Made by a program: the position numbers and the translations under genes. DNA of 51,166 bases. Source: a virus. Of the stretch, positions 18,146 to 51,166 are shown one piece after another (the first letter of the stretch is position 1; each line of letters starts with the position of its first letter). The notes under the pieces are model-generated. The model was not told the DNA's origin, made no database searches, and worked only from the letters and a program-made list of their open reading frames with translations. The DNA lies in the IMG/VR virus record IMGVR_UViG_3300026518_000014, positions 1 through 51,166 of that record; one strand, written 5' to 3'.

Positions 18146-18164
18146 CTTATTACTAATATAGAAA
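18146..18164 (+). promoter_or_regulatory. Phage promoter motif
   Basis: CTTATTACTAATATAGAAA, 62 nt before the ATG at 18227. It would drive the seven-gene orphan operon. Confidence 0.6.
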
Positions 18165-18226: not shown

Positions 18227-19006
18227 ATGGAATTTAAAACAAGCATTTATCCTAATTATTTAATTTATAAAAAAGAGAAAGAGGATATTCTAAAGAATGA
18301 ATATTTCATTAATGTAATGGATATAAAATTAGAAATAATAGATATGCTAAAATCTACTTTAGACAATACTGAAGAATTAATGTATAAACATAATAATGCT
18401 CCGGTATTAAGAGATGAATTATATACAAATGGAAATAAAGTATATAGTAAAGAAGAATTAAATAATATAGGAAATCTTTTAACTATTTTAAAAGAAAATC
18501 CAATTTACCCATTAATAGACGACGGTATTATTAATGAACCTATACTATATAAAAATATTTACAGATATTCTAAATCAGGTATAATAACAAATGAGTATGA
18601 TTATGATTTAATAGCCAATGAACTTGTAAAAGATTTAATAAAAGTAACATTATTAGATAATAATGCTGATAAATCTTATATAACTGATTCATTCGGACTT
18701 ACTTATGATAATAAACCTGTTTTCTTAGAAGAAGAATTTATGTTAGACGATATAGCGTATTCTTATCACATAGTAGATAAATTTGAAAATGAATTAAATG
18801 TAAAAGATAAAGTAAGATTATTTACTTTACTAAATGAGCTATCTACTAATTTATTTAAAAAAGTTATTACTATTTTAGATAAAACAGATATAAGAAGATA
18901 CAGTATTGAAACAAGTATAACTGATAACACATTAATAATAAATACAGGATTACCATATAGTAGCTTAAGAGCAAAGGTAACAAAATATCTATTAAATAGG
19001 AGATGA
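18227..19006 (+). CDS. Unknown protein, 259 aa (orphan operon gene 1)
   Basis: No family recognised. It is helical, with a strand-turn-strand end (SIETSITDNTLIINTG). It opens a run of seven genes with overlaps or tiny gaps that reaches 21933. The products share a layout of an acidic helical body followed by a short beta-like end. A GGAG site precedes the ATG, which lies 62 nt after a promoter motif. Confidence 0.8.
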   Translation: MEFKTSIYPNYLIYKKEKEDILKNEYFINVMDIKLEIIDMLKSTLDNTEELMYKHNNAPVLRDELYTNGNKVYSKEELNNIGNLLTILKENPIYPLIDDGIINEPILYKNIYRYSKSGIITNEYDYDLIANELVKDLIKVTLLDNNADKSYITDSFGLTYDNKPVFLEEEFMLDDIAYSYHIVDKFENELNVKDKVRLFTLLNELSTNLFKKVITILDKTDIRRYSIETSITDNTLIINTGLPYSSLRAKVTKYLLNRR

Positions 19007-19008
19007 TA

Positions 19009-19473
19009 ATGAAAACTATAACTGTCGAAATACTCGCTCCTATGAGTGAGTATAAGCGTTTATTGACATATGTAACAAATAAACTATTTACTAATTTTGA
19101 CGAATTTATTCTTAACAAGTTTAATAATATAATACTAGAAGAAGTATTTAATTACACTATAGAACCTAGTACAAAACTTATGGTGGAATTAATGTTAAAT
19201 GAAATAGTTGTAAAATTAGAAAATAGATTGTATGCTGAAACAGAAATAATAAAATACACATATGATATTGATATGTTTGAAAAGAATATATCATATATAA
19301 TAATTTTATTAACTAATAAGATAGATGATGATATTAAATTTAAAATAAGACAACTGTTATTTTTAAATAATCAATTTCATAACTATCCAAAAATAAAATT
19401 ATTAAATAACTACAATGCTGTATTAAAATATAAATTAAAGGTGGAAAATGAAAGAAATAATGATAGACGCTAG
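19009..19473 (+). CDS. Unknown protein, 154 aa (orphan operon gene 2)
   Basis: The ATG at 19009 is preferred over 19003: AGGAG at 18998-19002 gives it proper spacing. The product is helical, rich in Ile, Asn and Leu, with a beta-like C-terminus (YNAVLKYKLKV). No family is recognised. It overlaps the next gene by 26 nt, implying coupled translation. Confidence 0.78.
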   Translation: MKTITVEILAPMSEYKRLLTYVTNKLFTNFDEFILNKFNNIILEEVFNYTIEPSTKLMVELMLNEIVVKLENRLYAETEIIKYTYDIDMFEKNISYIIILLTNKIDDDIKFKIRQLLFLNNQFHNYPKIKLLNNYNAVLKYKLKVENERNNDRR

Positions 19474-19750
19474 TAAATTAACTTACTTAGAGAATAGTCC
19501 TGTATTCTCTTATATATTAGAATTTATTAAAAATTTAGATAACGATTATCTGGATAACATTTATTCTAATATAATTGAAAATATACCTAGTGAAAAACTA
19601 GAGTATGTTTTTGACGTTATAACTAAAACTTACTACTATATTTCTTTTTTAATCAATAGTAACGAACCTGATATTTGTAGTTTTAAAGTTATTAAATATT
19701 ATATTTCTAATGGGAAGATATTATTAAAAATTAAATTAAAGGAGTTATAA
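19448..19750 (+). CDS. Unknown protein, 100 aa (orphan operon gene 3)
   Basis: A small acidic helical protein ending in strands (FKVIKYYISNGKILLKIKL). It overlaps both neighbours: 26 nt with gene 2 and one nucleotide with gene 4. The RBS AAGGTGG lies inside gene 2. No family is recognised. Confidence 0.75.
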   Translation: MKEIMIDASKLTYLENSPVFSYILEFIKNLDNDYLDNIYSNIIENIPSEKLEYVFDVITKTYYYISFLINSNEPDICSFKVIKYYISNGKILLKIKLKEL

Positions 19751-20343
19751 TGGACGATAAATTATCATCTTACGATATTATAAATAGTATTAGAAAATAT
19801 ACTATTAATGAAGAAAATTCTATTAAAGAAAATATAGAATTAGACACTGAATTAACACTAAATGTTTGTAAATCGTATGTAAAAGAATTATTAGACTACA
19901 TACATATAAAATTTAATTATAACTATGATTTTGACGAATATGAATTCTTATTAGATAGGATTAGCAAAGCTACTATAGAGTTAACATTAATTTGTTATAA
20001 TACTAATTATGACATTGTCCAACTATTAACAGATGTTATATTTGACACTATGTTTGAAGATGAACTATTTACTGGTAGAGAAGATAAACTATTTACTAAT
20101 AAAGAATTAAATATTTATATTAATGAATTATACAGTGACTTAGAACAAATACTTAATATATTAATAAGTGAAAACTCAGTATTGAAGACATTAAAAATTA
20201 GATTTGGTAATTTCGTAATTGTACCAATACACTGGTATATGATTTCATTACCATCTATATATAAAAACACTAAAACAGTACTTGAAACAGTTAAATTAAA
20301 AACACACCTTATAAGGAGACAAAATGAGCAATATAGTAACTAA
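19750..20343 (+). CDS. Unknown protein, 197 aa (orphan operon gene 4)
   Basis: Long helices (SYVKELLDYIHIKFNY, LTLICYNTNYDIVQLLTDVIF) are followed by a strand-rich end (LKIRFGNFVIVPIHWYMI). The start codon overlaps the previous stop, and AAGGAG lies in the preceding gene. No family is recognised and there is no signal peptide. Confidence 0.78.
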   Translation: MDDKLSSYDIINSIRKYTINEENSIKENIELDTELTLNVCKSYVKELLDYIHIKFNYNYDFDEYEFLLDRISKATIELTLICYNTNYDIVQLLTDVIFDTMFEDELFTGREDKLFTNKELNIYINELYSDLEQILNILISENSVLKTLKIRFGNFVIVPIHWYMISLPSIYKNTKTVLETVKLKTHLIRRQNEQYSN

Positions 20344-21112
20344 AAATGAAATAGAAAAAATATTAGTAGAAGAAATTTACAATTATCCAGGATCAACTAT
20401 AGGTCAAGTTGTAATGGATGAAATTGAAAGTTTTATATCATTCTCTCATACCGAATATTATCGGTATGAGATATTCAATATTGACACTACAACTATGTCT
20501 GATTTTATATATATGATATTTGATATCGTAGAAGAGGACATTTATAAAATATTTGGTATAAGGATAACATTAAATATTAGTTATTTACCAGATATAGTAT
20601 TCTATATTGTCTATATGATAATAAATCAATATGTAGAAAATAACAATATAACGCAACATAACTATATTAAAGAATTAATAGATACTGGTAATTTTGGTGA
20701 TATTGTAGATATAATTATGGATGGTTTTGAGTATGGCGGATTTGAAGATAAAGTAGCTACAATATTAGAAGTAGATGTCTATGATTATGAATTAAATCTT
20801 GAGGACATTGTTGCGGAAGCAATAAGAGTTAATACAGAATTAGTTAAAGAATATTTAACTAAAATACTTATTAACAATCACCAATTAATAAGATACTTAG
20901 ATTTAATTAAAAAAGAAACAACAGACTATGTTTATTCACAATTATTGGATGTAGTTAGAACATTTAGATATCTAAATAAAAACAATCAATACACATTAGA
21001 ATATATTGTTAATACTGGTTTAAAATCTAGTGAACTAGGTAAAGACTATAGAATAAATATTAACAATATTAAAATAATAGTATGTAATAGTGAGAATAAA
21101 AATGAAAAATGA
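20324..21112 (+). CDS. Unknown protein, 262 aa (orphan operon gene 5)
   Basis: Acidic, with two similar-looking helical halves; each has an EEI/DEIE-type start, a hydrophobic middle (DIVFYIVYMIINQYV) and Asp/Tyr-rich turns. It may be an internal duplication, but this needs alignment. It begins 20 nt inside the previous gene with AAGGAGAC upstream. No family is recognised. Confidence 0.78.
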   Translation: MSNIVTKNEIEKILVEEIYNYPGSTIGQVVMDEIESFISFSHTEYYRYEIFNIDTTTMSDFIYMIFDIVEEDIYKIFGIRITLNISYLPDIVFYIVYMIINQYVENNNITQHNYIKELIDTGNFGDIVDIIMDGFEYGGFEDKVATILEVDVYDYELNLEDIVAEAIRVNTELVKEYLTKILINNHQLIRYLDLIKKETTDYVYSQLLDVVRTFRYLNKNNQYTLEYIVNTGLKSSELGKDYRININNIKIIVCNSENKNEK

Positions 21113-21536
21113 AAAACTAAATCTAAGATATAATAAGTTCGTAGCGTGTAAAAATAAAGAATTTTACGATATAGACATTACTATTTATATTAAAGAGTTT
21201 AAATTATTTCTAAATGAAATAGGTATAGATGAATCAGAAATAGGGAATAGTGAATATAAACTTATGACTGAATGTCTAATAAGTGTATTAGCCTATAGTA
21301 ATTTTGATATTAAAGAAATAATTCTAGAGATGTTTAATAATTCGTATTTTAAATTAAATCCTGAAACAGAATTATTAATAGCTTACCATATGGAAGATGC
21401 GTTTAAGAATCTAATTCTATTTAATCCTATCTTAAAAATAGCTAGTATCATTATGCCTTATGATTTAATAAAAAATAAAAAACAAGATAGAGATATTATA
21501 AAAACAGTAATCTGTCTTGATAAAATAAAATTATAA
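21102..21536 (+). CDS. Unknown protein, 144 aa (orphan operon gene 6)
   Basis: The ATG at 21102 is chosen over an upstream GTG at 21090; neither has a strong RBS, so translation is probably coupled to the upstream gene, which it overlaps by 11 nt. The protein is helical with Glu/Ile-rich segments (TECLISVLAYSNFDIKEIILEMF). No family is recognised. Confidence 0.72.
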   Translation: MKNEKLNLRYNKFVACKNKEFYDIDITIYIKEFKLFLNEIGIDESEIGNSEYKLMTECLISVLAYSNFDIKEIILEMFNNSYFKLNPETELLIAYHMEDAFKNLILFNPILKIASIIMPYDLIKNKKQDRDIIKTVICLDKIKL

Positions 21537-21546
21537 AGGAGATAGA

Positions 21547-21933
21547 ATGTTATTTAAAACTGGAGGTATATATGATTTTAATACAATAGCACCTATTACT
21601 TTAAACAACTATAAAAATGTAAAAGTATCAGGAGTTATTGATTTTGATATTGCGGTTAACTTTGAAGATGTAATTGGAATAAATGAGAAAATAAAAGAAG
21701 AATTAGGTAAAGACATACAAGGTATAGAATCTAGTAAGTTCTATATATTTAGAGGTATTAATGATGAAAAAGTAACACTATCTGAATTATGGATTATTCA
21801 GGACAGTATAAAACAAATAGAATCTATGGACTTATTAATTAAAGTTAAGAATGTAGAAGACACTGACAAATATGTTATACAAAATATATTAAGAAAAGCA
21901 GGTTATTTAAATGTCGAAATAAATAAAAGCTAA
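21547..21933 (+). CDS. Unknown protein, 128 aa (orphan operon gene 7)
   Basis: Mixed alpha/beta, unlike the helical genes before it. It starts MLFKTGGIYDFNTIAPITLNN-like and carries VSGVIDFDIAVNFEDV. The layout would fit a small beta-sandwich or baseplate/tail component, but no family is recognised. AAGGAG precedes the start, and the operon terminator overlaps its last codons. Confidence 0.78.
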   Translation: MLFKTGGIYDFNTIAPITLNNYKNVKVSGVIDFDIAVNFEDVIGINEKIKEELGKDIQGIESSKFYIFRGINDEKVTLSELWIIQDSIKQIESMDLLIKVKNVEDTDKYVIQNILRKAGYLNVEINKS

Positions 21934-21960
21934 GGTTACTCTTAGCTTTTATATTTTTTT
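21925..21960 (+). terminator. Intrinsic terminator of the orphan operon
   Basis: A perfect 10-bp stem AAAAGCTAAG/CTTAGCTTTT (21925-21934 with 21941-21950) is followed by ATATTTTTTT. Confidence 0.88.
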
Positions 21961-21965
21961 ATTTA

Positions 21966-21984
21966 TATATTACTAATATAGAAT
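21966..21984 (+). promoter_or_regulatory. Phage promoter motif ahead of the structured element
   Basis: TATATTACTAATATAGAAT, a strong copy. It lies 6 nt before the first stem of the structured element, with no conventional gene start until 22196. Confidence 0.65.
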
Positions 21985-21997
21985 AAAATTATTCTAC

Positions 21998-22114
21998 ATG
22001 GTGATGATCCCTAGCCATGTAGAATATGTAGAAGGGGATCAAATTGTAGCTGATGAAAATCAGCTACAAGAATTTAACAATGAAAAATATGAATTAGAAG
22101 CTTGTCTATTTTAG
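21998..22114 (+). CDS. Possible 38-residue acidic peptide overlapping the structured RNA
   Basis: Frame ATG 21998 to TAG 22112-22114 encodes an acidic peptide (VEYVEGDQIVADENQ in the middle). The stop lies in the loop of the terminator hairpin, as in genuine genes of this phage. Against it, there is no Shine-Dalgarno sequence and the ATG is inside stem 1. A second ATG at 22004 is also without an RBS. By a rough estimate from base composition, an open run of this length has a few per cent probability by chance. Confidence 0.3.
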   Translation: MVMIPSHVEYVEGDQIVADENQLQEFNNEKYELEACLF

Positions 22115-22139
22115 GCTTGCTTCTGATTCTTTTTTTTTT
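22096..22139 (+). terminator. Intrinsic terminator of the structured element
   Basis: Stem AGAAGC/GCTTCT with a 17-nt loop, followed after GAT by C and a long T-run. Confidence 0.7.
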
Positions 22140-22195
22140 CTTTAATAATTAACAAATTAAAAATCGATTGCAAAATTAAATAGATAGGATATATT

Positions 22196-24799
22196 ATGTA
22201 TAAATGGAATAGAAGGGTTAAAAGAGGAGAACCTTATTACGAATGTAGCAGTAAAGGAGATAAAAGATTTTCTGCTATATTCGCTAAAATAGATAATAAG
22301 TCTATAGAAGAAATTTACCAATTAGATATTAAAGGATACAGAGGAGAAGTAGAACATTGGAAAGATGCTAAAGGAAAAGAACCTAAAAATATAACTTATG
22401 AAGAAGCATATGAACAATACTTAAATCTATGGATAAAATATTTTAATAATAATCCAGAATTGTATTTTGAAATAAGAGAAAAAGCAAAAGATAAAACTAT
22501 TACAGATATGTTCGGTATAACTCCTATTAACCAAGCAAGAGCTATATGTGATATACTAAATAACCCAGAACGTTTATCAATATTTAAGGAGAATTATATG
22601 TCAAAATTTCTAAATAAAAGTCACGATTATAAAAACAACATAGACCCTATAGAACAATACATAAAAGTATCATCTGTTTATATTTCTAAGAAAAAGAATA
22701 TACCTATAGAAGAAGCTGAACAAAAAATAAGAGATTATATTAAGACTAATAAAAGATACAAAAATCCTAAAGTTAAATATAGAGAAAGAAATTTAAAAGG
22801 TGATACAGAAATTAAAGTAACTAATTTAAATAGTTATATACAATATCCTAAAAGAACAGGAAATATTATAGTGCCATCTTTTACAGTATATTTTAAACCT
22901 GAACTTAAGAAGTCTCTACATAGCGAATTCATTTATGAGAATGTTGCTGAAAGAAATATGCATAAAAAACTTGCTTTTAAATACGAGAACGAGGGTAAAA
23001 TAGATTTATTCAAAAAACATAATACTATACAAAAAACTAAAAAGATATTTAATAATAGTTTAAGTGGTGCATATGGTAGTAGTGGAACAATATTATTTAA
23101 CCCATCTGCTCACTATACTTTAACTAGTATTACAAGATGTGTAAGTGGAACGGGTAATAGTTTATCAGAAACAGTTATTAGTGGTAATAAACATTTCGCT
23201 TCTCCTGATATAGTTTTAAATTATATATCTACAGTTGTTACTTATACAGATAAAGACAAAATAAATAAAATAAAAAATAAATATAATTTACATACACCAA
23301 CAATTGATGAGCTTATGGATATGGTTTTAAAATCTACTAGGTACTATTGGAAATCAGCTGTTAAAGAAAAATATATTTATGATTTATTATCTACTTTAAC
23401 ATCTGAAGAAAGATTATGGTTAATGTACCTAAATGATTTATGGCATATGAGAAAGTACAATGAAAATGTATTAAGAGATTTATTTAATATGTTATTAAAA
23501 AGACCTAATATAGATAATATTAATTTACCTAAAGATGAGATGGTAGAAATTCTTAATAATCATAAAGAATATTTAAATATGCTACACCATATTAGAGCAG
23601 ATGTTTTACAAGGTAAAAATCCTGTTTATGGATTACTAGATGAAAATGACGTTAAAGAACTATATGGTAGTTTAATGGCTGCTAAAGAAGCTTTTGAAAA
23701 GTATGATGATTTATTAACAACATTTTTAATAACTGACCTATTACCTATAAACATTTCTTATATAAGAGATATGTTAAGAGAAGTTATTGTATTATCAGAT
23801 ACAGATAGTACTTGTGCTACTTATGAAGATTGGGTTATATGGTACTATGGAGAAAATAAATTTAGTATTGAGGGAATGGCTGCTACTGGTGTAATAATGA
23901 CATTAGCTACTACATCTATAGACCACGGTATTAAAGTATTTGCAGCAAATATGAATATACCTAAAGATAGAGTAAATTTAATAGCTATGAAAAATGAATT
24001 TTATTGGGATGTTTTTGTTAATACTAATGTTAGTAAACATTACTTTGCAGACTTCTGGATAAAAGAAGGGAATGTTAGAGTTAAACCTAAAAATGAAATT
24101 AAAGGTGTTAACTTAATTGCTAGTAACGTTTATAACTATGTTAGGGATATTAGATTATGGATGATGAATGATATATTTAAACAAGTAAGAAACAAACAAC
24201 CTATTCCTATAGAAACTTACTTAAAAATAACTTTAGCTGTAGAAAGCTTAATTATTCAAAAAGTAATGGAAGGTAGTCCTAGTATTTTAAAAATGGATAA
24301 AATTAAAGGTGAAGATAGTTATAAATTAGATAAATATAAAAGCCCTTATTTCCATTATTTAGTATGGCAAGCAGTATTTGCTAAAAAATATGATAATGCA
24401 CCAGACCCTATGTATATTGCAGTTAAGACTCCTGTTACTACTAATAATAAAAGAAAAATAAATGAGTTTATAGAAGTACTAAAACAACAAGATGAGGAAA
24501 TGGCTAAAGGATTTGAAGTTCTATTAAAAGATGCTAATAAAACAGCAATAGGTAGTTTGAAGTTACCATTAGCTAATCTATTAGAAAAAGGTTTACCTGA
24601 AGAACTTACGCTTATATTAGATTTGGATAAAATTATTTTTGATAATTGTAATGTGTTATATATGGTGCTAGAAAGTATAGGTTATCATAAATTACCTAAA
24701 ACTACATTATCAGATATAGAATTAAGTTTATTAGAAGAAATAAAAATTAAGAGTAATGAAAAATATGAAGAATACATATCAAACATTATAAATAAATAA
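22196..24799 (+). CDS. Family-B DNA-polymerase-like protein fused to a small N-terminal domain, 867 aa
   Basis: The C-terminal part carries landmarks of B-family polymerases in the right order. Motif B appears as QKTKKIFNNSLSGAYG (279-294), motif C as LSDTDST (533-539), the thumb KKRY element as SKHYFAD (613-619) and the KGV-L-SN element as KGVNLIASN (636-644). Motif A (D-x-x-SLYP) and the 3'-5' exonuclease motifs are not visible, so catalysis as a normal replicase is doubtful. Residues about 14-121 form a separate domain with SSKGDKRFSA (18-27) and a closing ITDMFG...INQARAICDIL, a module I recall as a stand-alone small phage/bacterial protein but cannot name. The weak RBS AGGAT lies 7 nt upstream. 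Confidence 0.7.
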   Translation: MYKWNRRVKRGEPYYECSSKGDKRFSAIFAKIDNKSIEEIYQLDIKGYRGEVEHWKDAKGKEPKNITYEEAYEQYLNLWIKYFNNNPELYFEIREKAKDKTITDMFGITPINQARAICDILNNPERLSIFKENYMSKFLNKSHDYKNNIDPIEQYIKVSSVYISKKKNIPIEEAEQKIRDYIKTNKRYKNPKVKYRERNLKGDTEIKVTNLNSYIQYPKRTGNIIVPSFTVYFKPELKKSLHSEFIYENVAERNMHKKLAFKYENEGKIDLFKKHNTIQKTKKIFNNSLSGAYGSSGTILFNPSAHYTLTSITRCVSGTGNSLSETVISGNKHFASPDIVLNYISTVVTYTDKDKINKIKNKYNLHTPTIDELMDMVLKSTRYYWKSAVKEKYIYDLLSTLTSEERLWLMYLNDLWHMRKYNENVLRDLFNMLLKRPNIDNINLPKDEMVEILNNHKEYLNMLHHIRADVLQGKNPVYGLLDENDVKELYGSLMAAKEAFEKYDDLLTTFLITDLLPINISYIRDMLREVIVLSDTDSTCATYEDWVIWYYGENKFSIEGMAATGVIMTLATTSIDHGIKVFAANMNIPKDRVNLIAMKNEFYWDVFVNTNVSKHYFADFWIKEGNVRVKPKNEIKGVNLIASNVYNYVRDIRLWMMNDIFKQVRNKQPIPIETYLKITLAVESLIIQKVMEGSPSILKMDKIKGEDSYKLDKYKSPYFHYLVWQAVFAKKYDNAPDPMYIAVKTPVTTNNKRKINEFIEVLKQQDEEMAKGFEVLLKDANKTAIGSLKLPLANLLEKGLPEELTLILDLDKIIFDNCNVLYMVLESIGYHKLPKTTLSDIELSLLEEIKIKSNEKYEEYISNIINK

Positions 24800-45230: not shown

Positions 45231-45587
45231 ATGGAAGAAATAAAAAACTCAGCAAAGGTGATAGAAAACAATGGATTTTATGAATTATCGTTAGATAATA
45301 ATTTAATAAAAGAGAAAATAACATCTCTTTTAAAAAGTATAAAGCTTAATGATGATATAGAGTATATCTTACCTATAGAAGACGAATTAACTAATGATTT
45401 AATTATTAGGATAATCAGTGAGATATTTATAAGTAAAATAAATATGACCGATAATGAGCCTTATATAGTTATTTTTAATATAGATGGTATAAAATACAAA
45501 ATTTCAATAACTAAATTAAACATTAAAAATGAAATTAAATATTTATATGGTACAGTGATGAAAATGCATGTAGACTATGACGATTAA
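45231..45587 (+). CDS. Unknown protein, 118 aa (baseplate block)
   Basis: Small acidic protein with a helical N-terminus and strands near the end (PYIVIFNIDGIKYKISI). It starts 1 nt after the hub-like gene (AAGGAT upstream) and overlaps the convergent gene by 4 nt. Its last five residues, VDYDD, are identical to those of that convergent gene because both lie in the same palindrome. Confidence 0.76.
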   Translation: MEEIKNSAKVIENNGFYELSLDNNLIKEKITSLLKSIKLNDDIEYILPIEDELTNDLIIRIISEIFISKINMTDNEPYIVIFNIDGIKYKISITKLNIKNEIKYLYGTVMKMHVDYDD

Positions 45588-45603
45588 TCGTCATAGTCTA
45601 CAT
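45568..45603. repeat. 16-bp perfect inverted repeat shared by two gene ends
   Basis: The stems are 45568-45583 and 45588-45603 with a TTAA loop that supplies both stop codons. No flanking T-run is present on either strand, so it is not a textbook intrinsic terminator. Confidence 0.75.
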
Positions 45604-46381
45604 CACCATAATCAAAATCATTTTCTTCTAAATATATATCATTACTATCATTATTTAATTGGTGTTTTGTTTCAATACCAGAACATCCTAATTCATCCAG
45701 TTTATCTATAATATTACTTTTTTCTTTATTTAATTCTATTATTCTATTTTCTATTTCAGTAGAGTCATCATCTGGGTCCATATTATATAAATCATCGTTT
45801 AATTTTTGTATTTCATTTTTAATATTATCTAATACACTATTATAAAAATTACATTTATATCCTAAATAGTAATCATTATATCTTTTTCTTAATAATATAT
45901 ATAAGTCATAAAACTCTCTTAAAGAATTTTTATCGGCTTGCACCATACTACTTAAAATATCCATAGTTTTATTTAAGTCAGCTTCTGCTTTTTCAGGCGC
46001 TCTTTCTTGTTCCATATCAAATTCTTTTAAAATAGTTATATATGAAACATCAGATATAGGAGTATTTACATTATCATAATCAGTTAAATATTTAGGAACC
46101 CTAAATAAAATATCACCACTTTCATTTATAACATAAAAATCAGTTAATAGATCTCCTACTAAATTAACCCAATTGTTAATAAATGCTGTATTGTTTTCTT
46201 CTTGTTTTTCTACTAGATTTAACATATATGGTAGCATATATTTTATAAAATCGTCTTCATATACTTTAGGATAATCATCCACTGTACCTTCTGCTAATAC
46301 TTTAATATCATCGCCTATGTACGCTAATTCTTCCTCTAATTTCTTCATCACCATTTCATTAATTTTTTCTTGTTGGTTCAT
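45584..46381 (-). CDS. Unknown acidic protein, 265 aa
   Basis: Very acidic, mainly helical, with a coiled-coil-like stretch at about 185-235 (KNEIQKLNDDLYN, RIIELNKEKSNIIDKLDEL) and an Asp-rich end (FDYGDVDYDD). It is the second gene of a two-gene minus-strand operon with the 137-aa gene. The AAAGGAT site precedes the ATG. No family is recognised. It may be a tail chaperone or structural protein given its location. Confidence 0.76.
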   Translation of the reverse strand: MNQQEKINEMVMKKLEEELAYIGDDIKVLAEGTVDDYPKVYEDDFIKYMLPYMLNLVEKQEENNTAFINNWVNLVGDLLTDFYVINESGDILFRVPKYLTDYDNVNTPISDVSYITILKEFDMEQERAPEKAEADLNKTMDILSSMVQADKNSLREFYDLYILLRKRYNDYYLGYKCNFYNSVLDNIKNEIQKLNDDLYNMDPDDDSTEIENRIIELNKEKSNIIDKLDELGCSGIETKHQLNNDSNDIYLEENDFDYGDVDYDD

Positions 46382-50142: not shown

Positions 50143-50168
50143 AGCCTCAGTATCTAATATTTTTTTTC
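50125..50168 (+). terminator. Intrinsic terminator
   Basis: CTGAG-A-GCTCT pairs with AGAGC-CTCAG (50125-50135 with 50141-50150, one bulge). A T-run follows. Confidence 0.8.
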
Positions 50169-50184
50169 TAATATTTATTACATA

Positions 50185-50203
50185 TAAATAACTAAAATGC
50201 AAA
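50185..50203 (+). promoter_or_regulatory. Phage promoter motif
   Basis: TAAATAACTAAAATGCAAA, 22 nt before the ATG at 50226. Confidence 0.6.
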
Positions 50204-50225
50204 AATAATCAAAAAAGGAGAAGTA

Positions 50226-51166
50226 ATGTTTTACAGAGTAGAAATGCAAGTAAAAGATACAAAAGTGTTCATAGAACACAAAGGACAAAGTTTAGATTTT
50301 AACATAGAAGAACTTATTAATAGAAGAATAAAAGATTCTATAGATAAAGATATGTTTAAAGTATTAAACTTATTCGTAAACTGGAAAGGTGAAGCATTTA
50401 AAGATGAATTATTTAAAAGATATGTTCAAAGTTGGAATGATATAATGGATACTATTATGTCTGATGTAATTGAACTACCTTATCAAATAACAGATAGAAT
50501 ATTAGATATGTTTGACTATAACGAAATGGTGGAATTCCTAAAAACTCATAATCTTATTAGAATACCACAAACTTTAATGGATAGTTTTAATAAAGAAATT
50601 GAAGAGAATAAAGAAGGAAGTAGAGTACAAACATATTTAAAATCTGATTATTTAGATTTAGCAGCTCTTTTAACTATATTAAAAGCAACAGTTCCTATTT
50701 TAGGAACATATGCAGAAATTAATAAACAATCTATAGCTAAGGATTATAAGGATTATATTTTAATAATGTTTATAGTAAAGCATCCTATTAGCGATACTGA
50801 AGCGTTTCAGAAAATGGTAGGGTATATTAATAAACTTATTAATAATATCAAAAGTAATGAAGAAGAGTTACAGATGAGATTAATTAAAAAAGGTATAGAT
50901 GAAGAAAATTTAGCTTATAATATCTTAGGCGGAGTTTTAATAGAAAAAATGCTACTTAGTGATGAAACTAAAGACACAGATGCTAAAAATCTTATTACTA
51001 AATTTTATAGCTATGCTTCTGGTAGGCTTAATATCAAAAATAATCCTGTTGGAGATATTAAAATCAAAAGTAAATTTAAAATTAATCCAGATGGAGATGA
51101 TACTGAAAGTGTTATAGAAAGTTACAGAATACCAACTGATATAACGCCAGGATTTATGGAAGAATT
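50226..51166 (+). CDS. Unknown, probably virion protein (partial, 3' end missing)
   Basis: It starts with AAAGGAG then ATG 50226 and stays open to the window end, giving at least 313 residues. It begins MFYRVEMQVKDTKVFIEHKG and is helical and acidic in the middle. A beta-like segment near the end (GDIKIKSKFKINPDGDD) is seen. No catalytic motif is found; the layout resembles jumbo-phage virion proteins. It is immediately downstream of a promoter motif. Confidence 0.72.
   Translation, partial: MFYRVEMQVKDTKVFIEHKGQSLDFNIEELINRRIKDSIDKDMFKVLNLFVNWKGEAFKDELFKRYVQSWNDIMDTIMSDVIELPYQITDRILDMFDYNEMVEFLKTHNLIRIPQTLMDSFNKEIEENKEGSRVQTYLKSDYLDLAALLTILKATVPILGTYAEINKQSIAKDYKDYILIMFIVKHPISDTEAFQKMVGYINKLINNIKSNEEELQMRLIKKGIDEENLAYNILGGVLIEKMLLSDETKDTDAKNLITKFYSYASGRLNIKNNPVGDIKIKSKFKINPDGDDTESVIESYRIPTDITPGFMEE

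Follow-up and report, generated by a model that had tools for sequence, protein, structure and literature searches.

What is made from the gap between the SH3DP and divergent DNA polymerase genes of this phage, and is it an RNA that acts as such, a very short messenger or an element of the DNA itself? The window, by which we mean the whole 51,166-nt stretch analyzed, is a 51 kb virus record with a GC content of 25%, and it encodes PhuZ tubulin, terminase, SH3DP (PF20287), and a divergent family B DNA polymerase (PF20286). These are genes of phiKZ-like phages, and we therefore assign the window to a Chimalliviridae-like, nucleus-forming jumbo phage. The top match of the polymerase among cultured phages is that of Burkholderia phage FLC9 (33%), and within IMG/VR one contig, L083, reaches 64%, followed by an AT-rich clade at ~37-46%; a Mariprofundaceae MAG contains one relative.

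The upstream neighbor, SH3DP (21547..21933, + strand; SH3-fold, associated with phage DNA polymerases; Pfam PF20287, E 7e-15; phrog_3235), has its stop codon inside the terminator of its operon (21923..21952, + strand), which a pattern scan delimits as a 13-bp stem followed by a T-run. Downstream, the polymerase gene (22196..24799, + strand) joins an N-terminal phrog_9995 domain (residues 1-123) to the polymerase proper (residues 141-830), and an internal Shine-Dalgarno site with an ATG at 22598 suggests that the polymerase can also start alone. The phrog_9995 domain is a gene of its own in phiKZ-like phages, and in L084 and L090 it lies 3' of the polymerase gene. An RNA tied to this domain was considered and rejected, as the related contigs G002, G005, G008, and G010 carry the domain elsewhere with no such RNA upstream.

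A predicted early transcription unit before the polymerase gene

The element occupies positions 21966-22139 and consists of an early-promoter motif, a pseudoknot-capable hairpin, a GAAA hairpin, and an intrinsic terminator. The motif, TATATTACTAATATAG (21966..21981, + strand), is an exact motif match whose core, TATATTAC, agrees with the phiKZ early-promoter consensus (PMC7058600, Table 2); the phage promoter noticed upstream by the sequence-only reading would, from its motif, be of the phiKZ early type, and the AT-rich TATATTAC-like sequence that marks a phiKZ-type early transcription unit is in place. Such motifs center near -10 in RNAP-encoding jumbo phages (PMC7598289), which would put the start site of the element at ~21980. 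In the window taken alone, its frequency hardly stands out from chance, with 4 matches at up to 2 mismatches against 1.4 expected. In several related contigs, words of the type ATATTA[CT]TAA are the leading upstream words, as in G004 (11/40 upstream regions) and G018, and they stand ~40-60 nt 5' of genes. The distance from promoter to ATG in the element, 32, falls inside the range seen in related phages. Together, its own promoter and terminator support the discrete transcript of about 150 nt that had been proposed, at a predicted ~155-160 nt, and this would be an early product of the virion RNA polymerase. The motif recurs with 2 mismatches at 18146-18161, 5' of a hairpin-bearing leader and the operon at 18227-21933.

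Structured 5' leaders downstream of the same promoter type are also present in relatives. The closest relative (IMGVR_UViG_3300026488_000012) holds five copies of a ~110-nt structured 5' leader just before gene starts (L171:12 and 3113, G001:62616, L177:4324, and L178:2659), several of which follow early-promoter-like motifs and whose stems covary between copies; the L171 and L177 copies had no Rfam match above threshold. The AT-rich related contigs additionally contain GC-rich intergenic islands of ~200 nt (G002:124506-124725, G008:5911-6080 and 45441-45660, G005:17456-17675, G018:97241-97440, and G007:69891-70110), several of which have TGCGATCACT-like motifs in common and two of which, the G008 copies, match at 67%. 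The island loci scanned had no match in Rfam. Three further GC-rich intergenic stretches, at G010:136481, G015:71896, and G016:11131, are alike and may be group I introns.

Fold of the element and searches for its homologs

The sequence-only reading had described two perfect 11-bp stems, and this is accurate for the second, hairpin 2 (22044-22069, + strand), with its GAAA tetraloop located at 22055-22058 as described. Stem 1 (21990-22002 paired with 22014-22026, + strand) is instead a 13-bp helix with one G-U pair and an 11-nt loop at 22003-22013. The 7-nt complement between this loop and the sequence downstream, TGATCCC at 22005-22011 and GGGATCA at 22035-22041, is present as placed, neither 7-mer recurring elsewhere on the + strand of the window. 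It extends to an 8-bp helix with one U-G pair (22005-22012 with 22034-22041, + strand; duplex -11.6 kcal/mol). With loop lengths of 2, 1, and 7 nt as read from the sequence, the proposed H-type pseudoknot is sterically plausible, the 7-nt loop being tight across 13 bp. The element ends in an intrinsic terminator (22091..22139, + strand) with 11-bp arms at 22091-22101 and 22119-22129, one pair of which is G-U, and the long T-run already noted, T10 at 22130-22139.

It is clear from the statistics that this fold is far from ordinary for the window. The fold z score is -7.73 for 21981-22145 and -5.99 without the terminator, in each case as low in 0/200 shuffles, and at -39.6 kcal/mol per 120 nt, the element is the most strongly folded intergenic region, with the runner-up at -23.7. 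Of 2000 shuffles, 19 contained a stem of 13 bp or longer, 3 contained two stems of 11 bp or longer, and none contained three. The 7-bp loop complement arises in 0.14% of 17-mers drawn at random from the window vs 3.5% of shuffles of this spacer, so that the pseudoknot pairing alone is moderate evidence. Since hairpins of at least 11 bp inside coding sequence number just 2 in 47 kb of the window, the fold is not accounted for by coding of the usual kind. The window also contains 816 nt without a called gene at 50143-50958, where folding is weak.

The class to which such an RNA might belong was sought in several ways. Rfam 15 gave no match above the gathering threshold for the window and sub-threshold matches under an E-value threshold, in line with the earlier view that no known RNA class is recognizable, and the element is not a tRNA or tmRNA by ARAGORN. 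BLAST of the element against phages, plasmids, and 20 related contigs returned low-complexity or promoter matches only, and a hairpin-plus-pseudoknot descriptor run over ~2 Mb of relatives returned ~50 weak intergenic matches and no convincing homolog. In a first pass of eight sequences, the descriptor had one strong match, L178:3284, with a 13-bp stem, a 7-bp pseudoknot, and GGGGACAAAATT downstream, but it lies within a 728-aa reading frame and was deemed chance. The pattern CTACATGG-N-CCATGTAG matched viral contigs 71 times, those inspected being terminators or repeat-rich regions rather than homologs, and a match to the loop 17-mer in L301 has a GC content of 54% and no hairpin. A comparison of L3 and the linker with start regions of the window made no polymerase target prominent.

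The SH3DP-polymerase slot in relatives

We refer to the gap from SH3DP to the polymerase as the slot, which measures 262 nt in the window. In the closest clade, it is mostly 60-100 nt, the exceptions being L084, L086, and L090, and in the nearest relative, L083, it is ~80 nt and the element is absent; by eye, what follows the terminator of the element, up to the polymerase gene, is similar to the leader that precedes the polymerase in L083. In numerous other Chimalliviridae loci, the slot spans 230-850 nt; that of E. coli phage Goslar has 298 nt and a fold z score of -3.4. A large candidate slot RNA was followed at L074:1447-1982, L107, L109, L113, L120, and L126 and in the slots of L102-L162, and the slots of FLC9, L107, L109, L113, L120, and L126, each a 530-570-nt gap, were aligned (alignment A4). 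RNAalifold predicted 112 pairs for this alignment, with 97.6% of cells able to pair, and 28/112 pairs are changed on both sides, whereas shuffles give 16.6 such pairs and slid structures no more than 7. Helices 1 and 20 join the RNA to sequence past its terminator and are invariant, so they carry no evidence of covariation. A strong terminator closes the region, and the TTTTTATGCCG after it includes TATG, the late-promoter core (PMC7598289). There was no Rfam match for the large slot RNA, and, judged on the alignment, the slot of the FLC9 group appears to encode a structured RNA that has not been described before.

The conserved blocks of the large RNA are CCGTAATGTTCTGAAGAGAA, a GGG..GGCA..CCC hairpin, and TTGTAACGACCTGTA, the last of which is complementary in the FLC9 group to the stretch directly 5' of the polymerase Shine-Dalgarno site. 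A GGG..GGC..CCC hairpin near the 5' end seems recurrent in other groups, with a short alignment too diverged for modeling. The large RNA and the window element share their place between SH3DP and divDNApol and the order in which an intrinsic terminator and then the polymerase follow, but one fills a 530-570-nt gap with covarying stems, whereas the other is ~158 nt long and has no sequence match to it by eye. As position and order are common and none of the conserved blocks was found in the window sequence when compared by eye, we do not file the element as a member of the large RNA. That it is nevertheless a compact member of this undescribed slot RNA, which would then be encoded by many nucleus-forming phages, be an early product, and act on the expression of the polymerase or on the biology of the phage nucleus, we regard as unlikely.

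The open frame, the competing readings, and known systems

The sole long open frame of the element has 38 codons (MVMIPSHVEYVEGDQIVADENQLQEFNNEKYELEACLF; 21998..22114, + strand), starts inside the 13-bp stem 1, and ends at a TAG in the terminator loop. Its codon score of 0.254 bits/codon compares with a mean of 0.318 for true 38-codon gene stretches and lies at the 37th percentile among true genes, while stop-free shuffles score -0.28 bits/codon (p 0.0007 for the frame); G is distributed 16/3/5 over the codon positions. Among RNAs randomized with their pairing preserved, 2.2% have a frame of at least 38 codons and 0/20000 reach the observed score, although 1.8% of off-frame open stretches do reach it, and chance can therefore produce it. 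The position of the stop fits a local pattern, as 14 of the 17 terminators in the window hold the stop of the upstream gene inside the hairpin, and stops within terminators may fit a transcription that is uncoupled from translation. In the nearest relative, the stop codon is inside a terminator hairpin in 36/54 cases. There is no AGGA-like Shine-Dalgarno site within 20 nt of the start of the frame, a site that 43 of the 47 genes with 100 aa or more in the window possess, and the peptide has no homologs in phages, PHROGs, or Pfam. As a mini-gene, the element thus shows gene-like codon usage and lacks a ribosome-binding site.

We consider it most likely, at a probability of roughly 45%, that the element is a discrete early mini-transcript serving as a minimal mRNA, which would encode an acidic protein of 38 residues. 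A structured mini-mRNA is the simplest reading because it accounts for both the fold and the codon signals. What we counted in its favor is the promoter enrichment in relatives, the significance of the fold, the codon score, the stop-in-terminator pattern, the promoter-ATG distance, a mini-gene at G005:74226, the structured leaders in relatives, and the likeness to the L083 leader; against it stand the missing Shine-Dalgarno site, the start within a stem, the lack of a peptide homolog, the rarity of long hairpins within coding sequence, and the off-frame rate of 1.8%. From the phiKZ-type early promoter, the virion RNA polymerase would transcribe the stretch between ~21980 and the end of the intrinsic terminator at 22139, and by calculation the 13-bp hairpin of this RNA forms an H-type pseudoknot, with the GAAA hairpin after it. 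With the start codon within stem 1, the 5' structure may limit or condition translation and protect the 5' end, and the polymerase downstream is probably transcribed from a later start of its own. Nearly as likely, although ranked below the mini-mRNA, is a pure noncoding early pseudoknotted RNA in the slot of the larger Chimalliviridae RNA, with the open frame accidental. The fold, promoter, and terminator and the absence of a Shine-Dalgarno site suit such an RNA, as does a slot and order (SH3DP, RNA, terminator, polymerase) equal to that of the FLC9-group RNA with its compensatory pairs, and noncoding RNAs of ~100 and 180 nt are known from other loci of phiKZ (PMC8545117). However, the codon signal must then be chance, the larger RNA has no match to the element by eye, and the slot of L083 measures just ~80 nt. 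Of the structured RNA originally proposed, the fold has stood, but its noncoding nature is in question, the 38-residue frame that the sequence-only reading had itself named as a possible refutation having gene-like codon usage.

The remaining readings concern the neighboring polymerase gene. The element could be a 5' leader or attenuator, in which the early promoter drives the polymerase upon terminator bypass and the pseudoknot is a sensor, as it lies directly 5' of that gene with a terminator in between. We think this improbable, since no antiterminator pairing was convincing by eye and the slot of the closest relatives has no such promoter. Moreover, although the doubled ATGTAGAA is indeed found at 22017 and 22026, the switch proposed to act through its second copy is unlikely, the alternative stem-1 pairing being 8.9 kcal/mol worse (-46.9 vs -55.8 kcal/mol) and leaving the terminator unaffected. 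Reviews describe transcription in the phage nucleus as uncoupled from translation (PMC12908238), making translation-coupled attenuation unlikely for transcripts made there. Less probable still is a DNA-level element beside the polymerase gene, such as protein-binding palindromes or an origin. Folding is about equal on both strands (z -5.7 for the antisense), as such an element would have it, yet the palindromes are not repeated elsewhere in the window, and the promoter, the T-run, and the GNRA (GAAA) loop, as well as all three non-Watson-Crick positions, which are G-U pairs on the + strand and A-C mismatches on the other, led us to assign the element to the + strand.

The element is thus real and a solid observation, single-copy and ambiguous in nature, without amounting to a proven new noncoding RNA. 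In nucleus-forming phages, a protein shell separates transcription from translation, and to our knowledge, few noncoding or structured early RNAs have been described in them. An early transcript at the polymerase locus offers a defined target for asking whether an RNA times the expression of the DNA polymerase, and the larger slot RNA of related phages is a stronger target of this kind and may be the more important lead. Type III antitoxin RNAs of the ToxI type are small H-type pseudoknot RNAs 5' of a gene, a description that the window element shares, but unlike a ToxIN system, it is a single unit with no tandem repeats, and the next gene encodes a polymerase rather than a toxin. The 44-codon mini-gene of a related jumbo phage at G005:74226 resembles the element in its early promoter motif, its short frame, and its stop in the terminator and differs in having a Shine-Dalgarno site. 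In phiKZ itself, the noncoding RNA candidates are a PHIKZ298 3' UTR species of ~100 nt and a p40 5' UTR species of ~180 nt (PMC8545117), which resemble the window element in being short, structured, and transcribed from the genome of a nucleus-forming phage. They come from other loci as far as can be judged, no pseudoknot is described for them, no start site of its own is mapped for the PHIKZ298 species, and neither has a demonstrated sequence similarity to the element; the p40 species may end prematurely at a hairpin 5' of its gene and in this respect is similar to the element before the polymerase.
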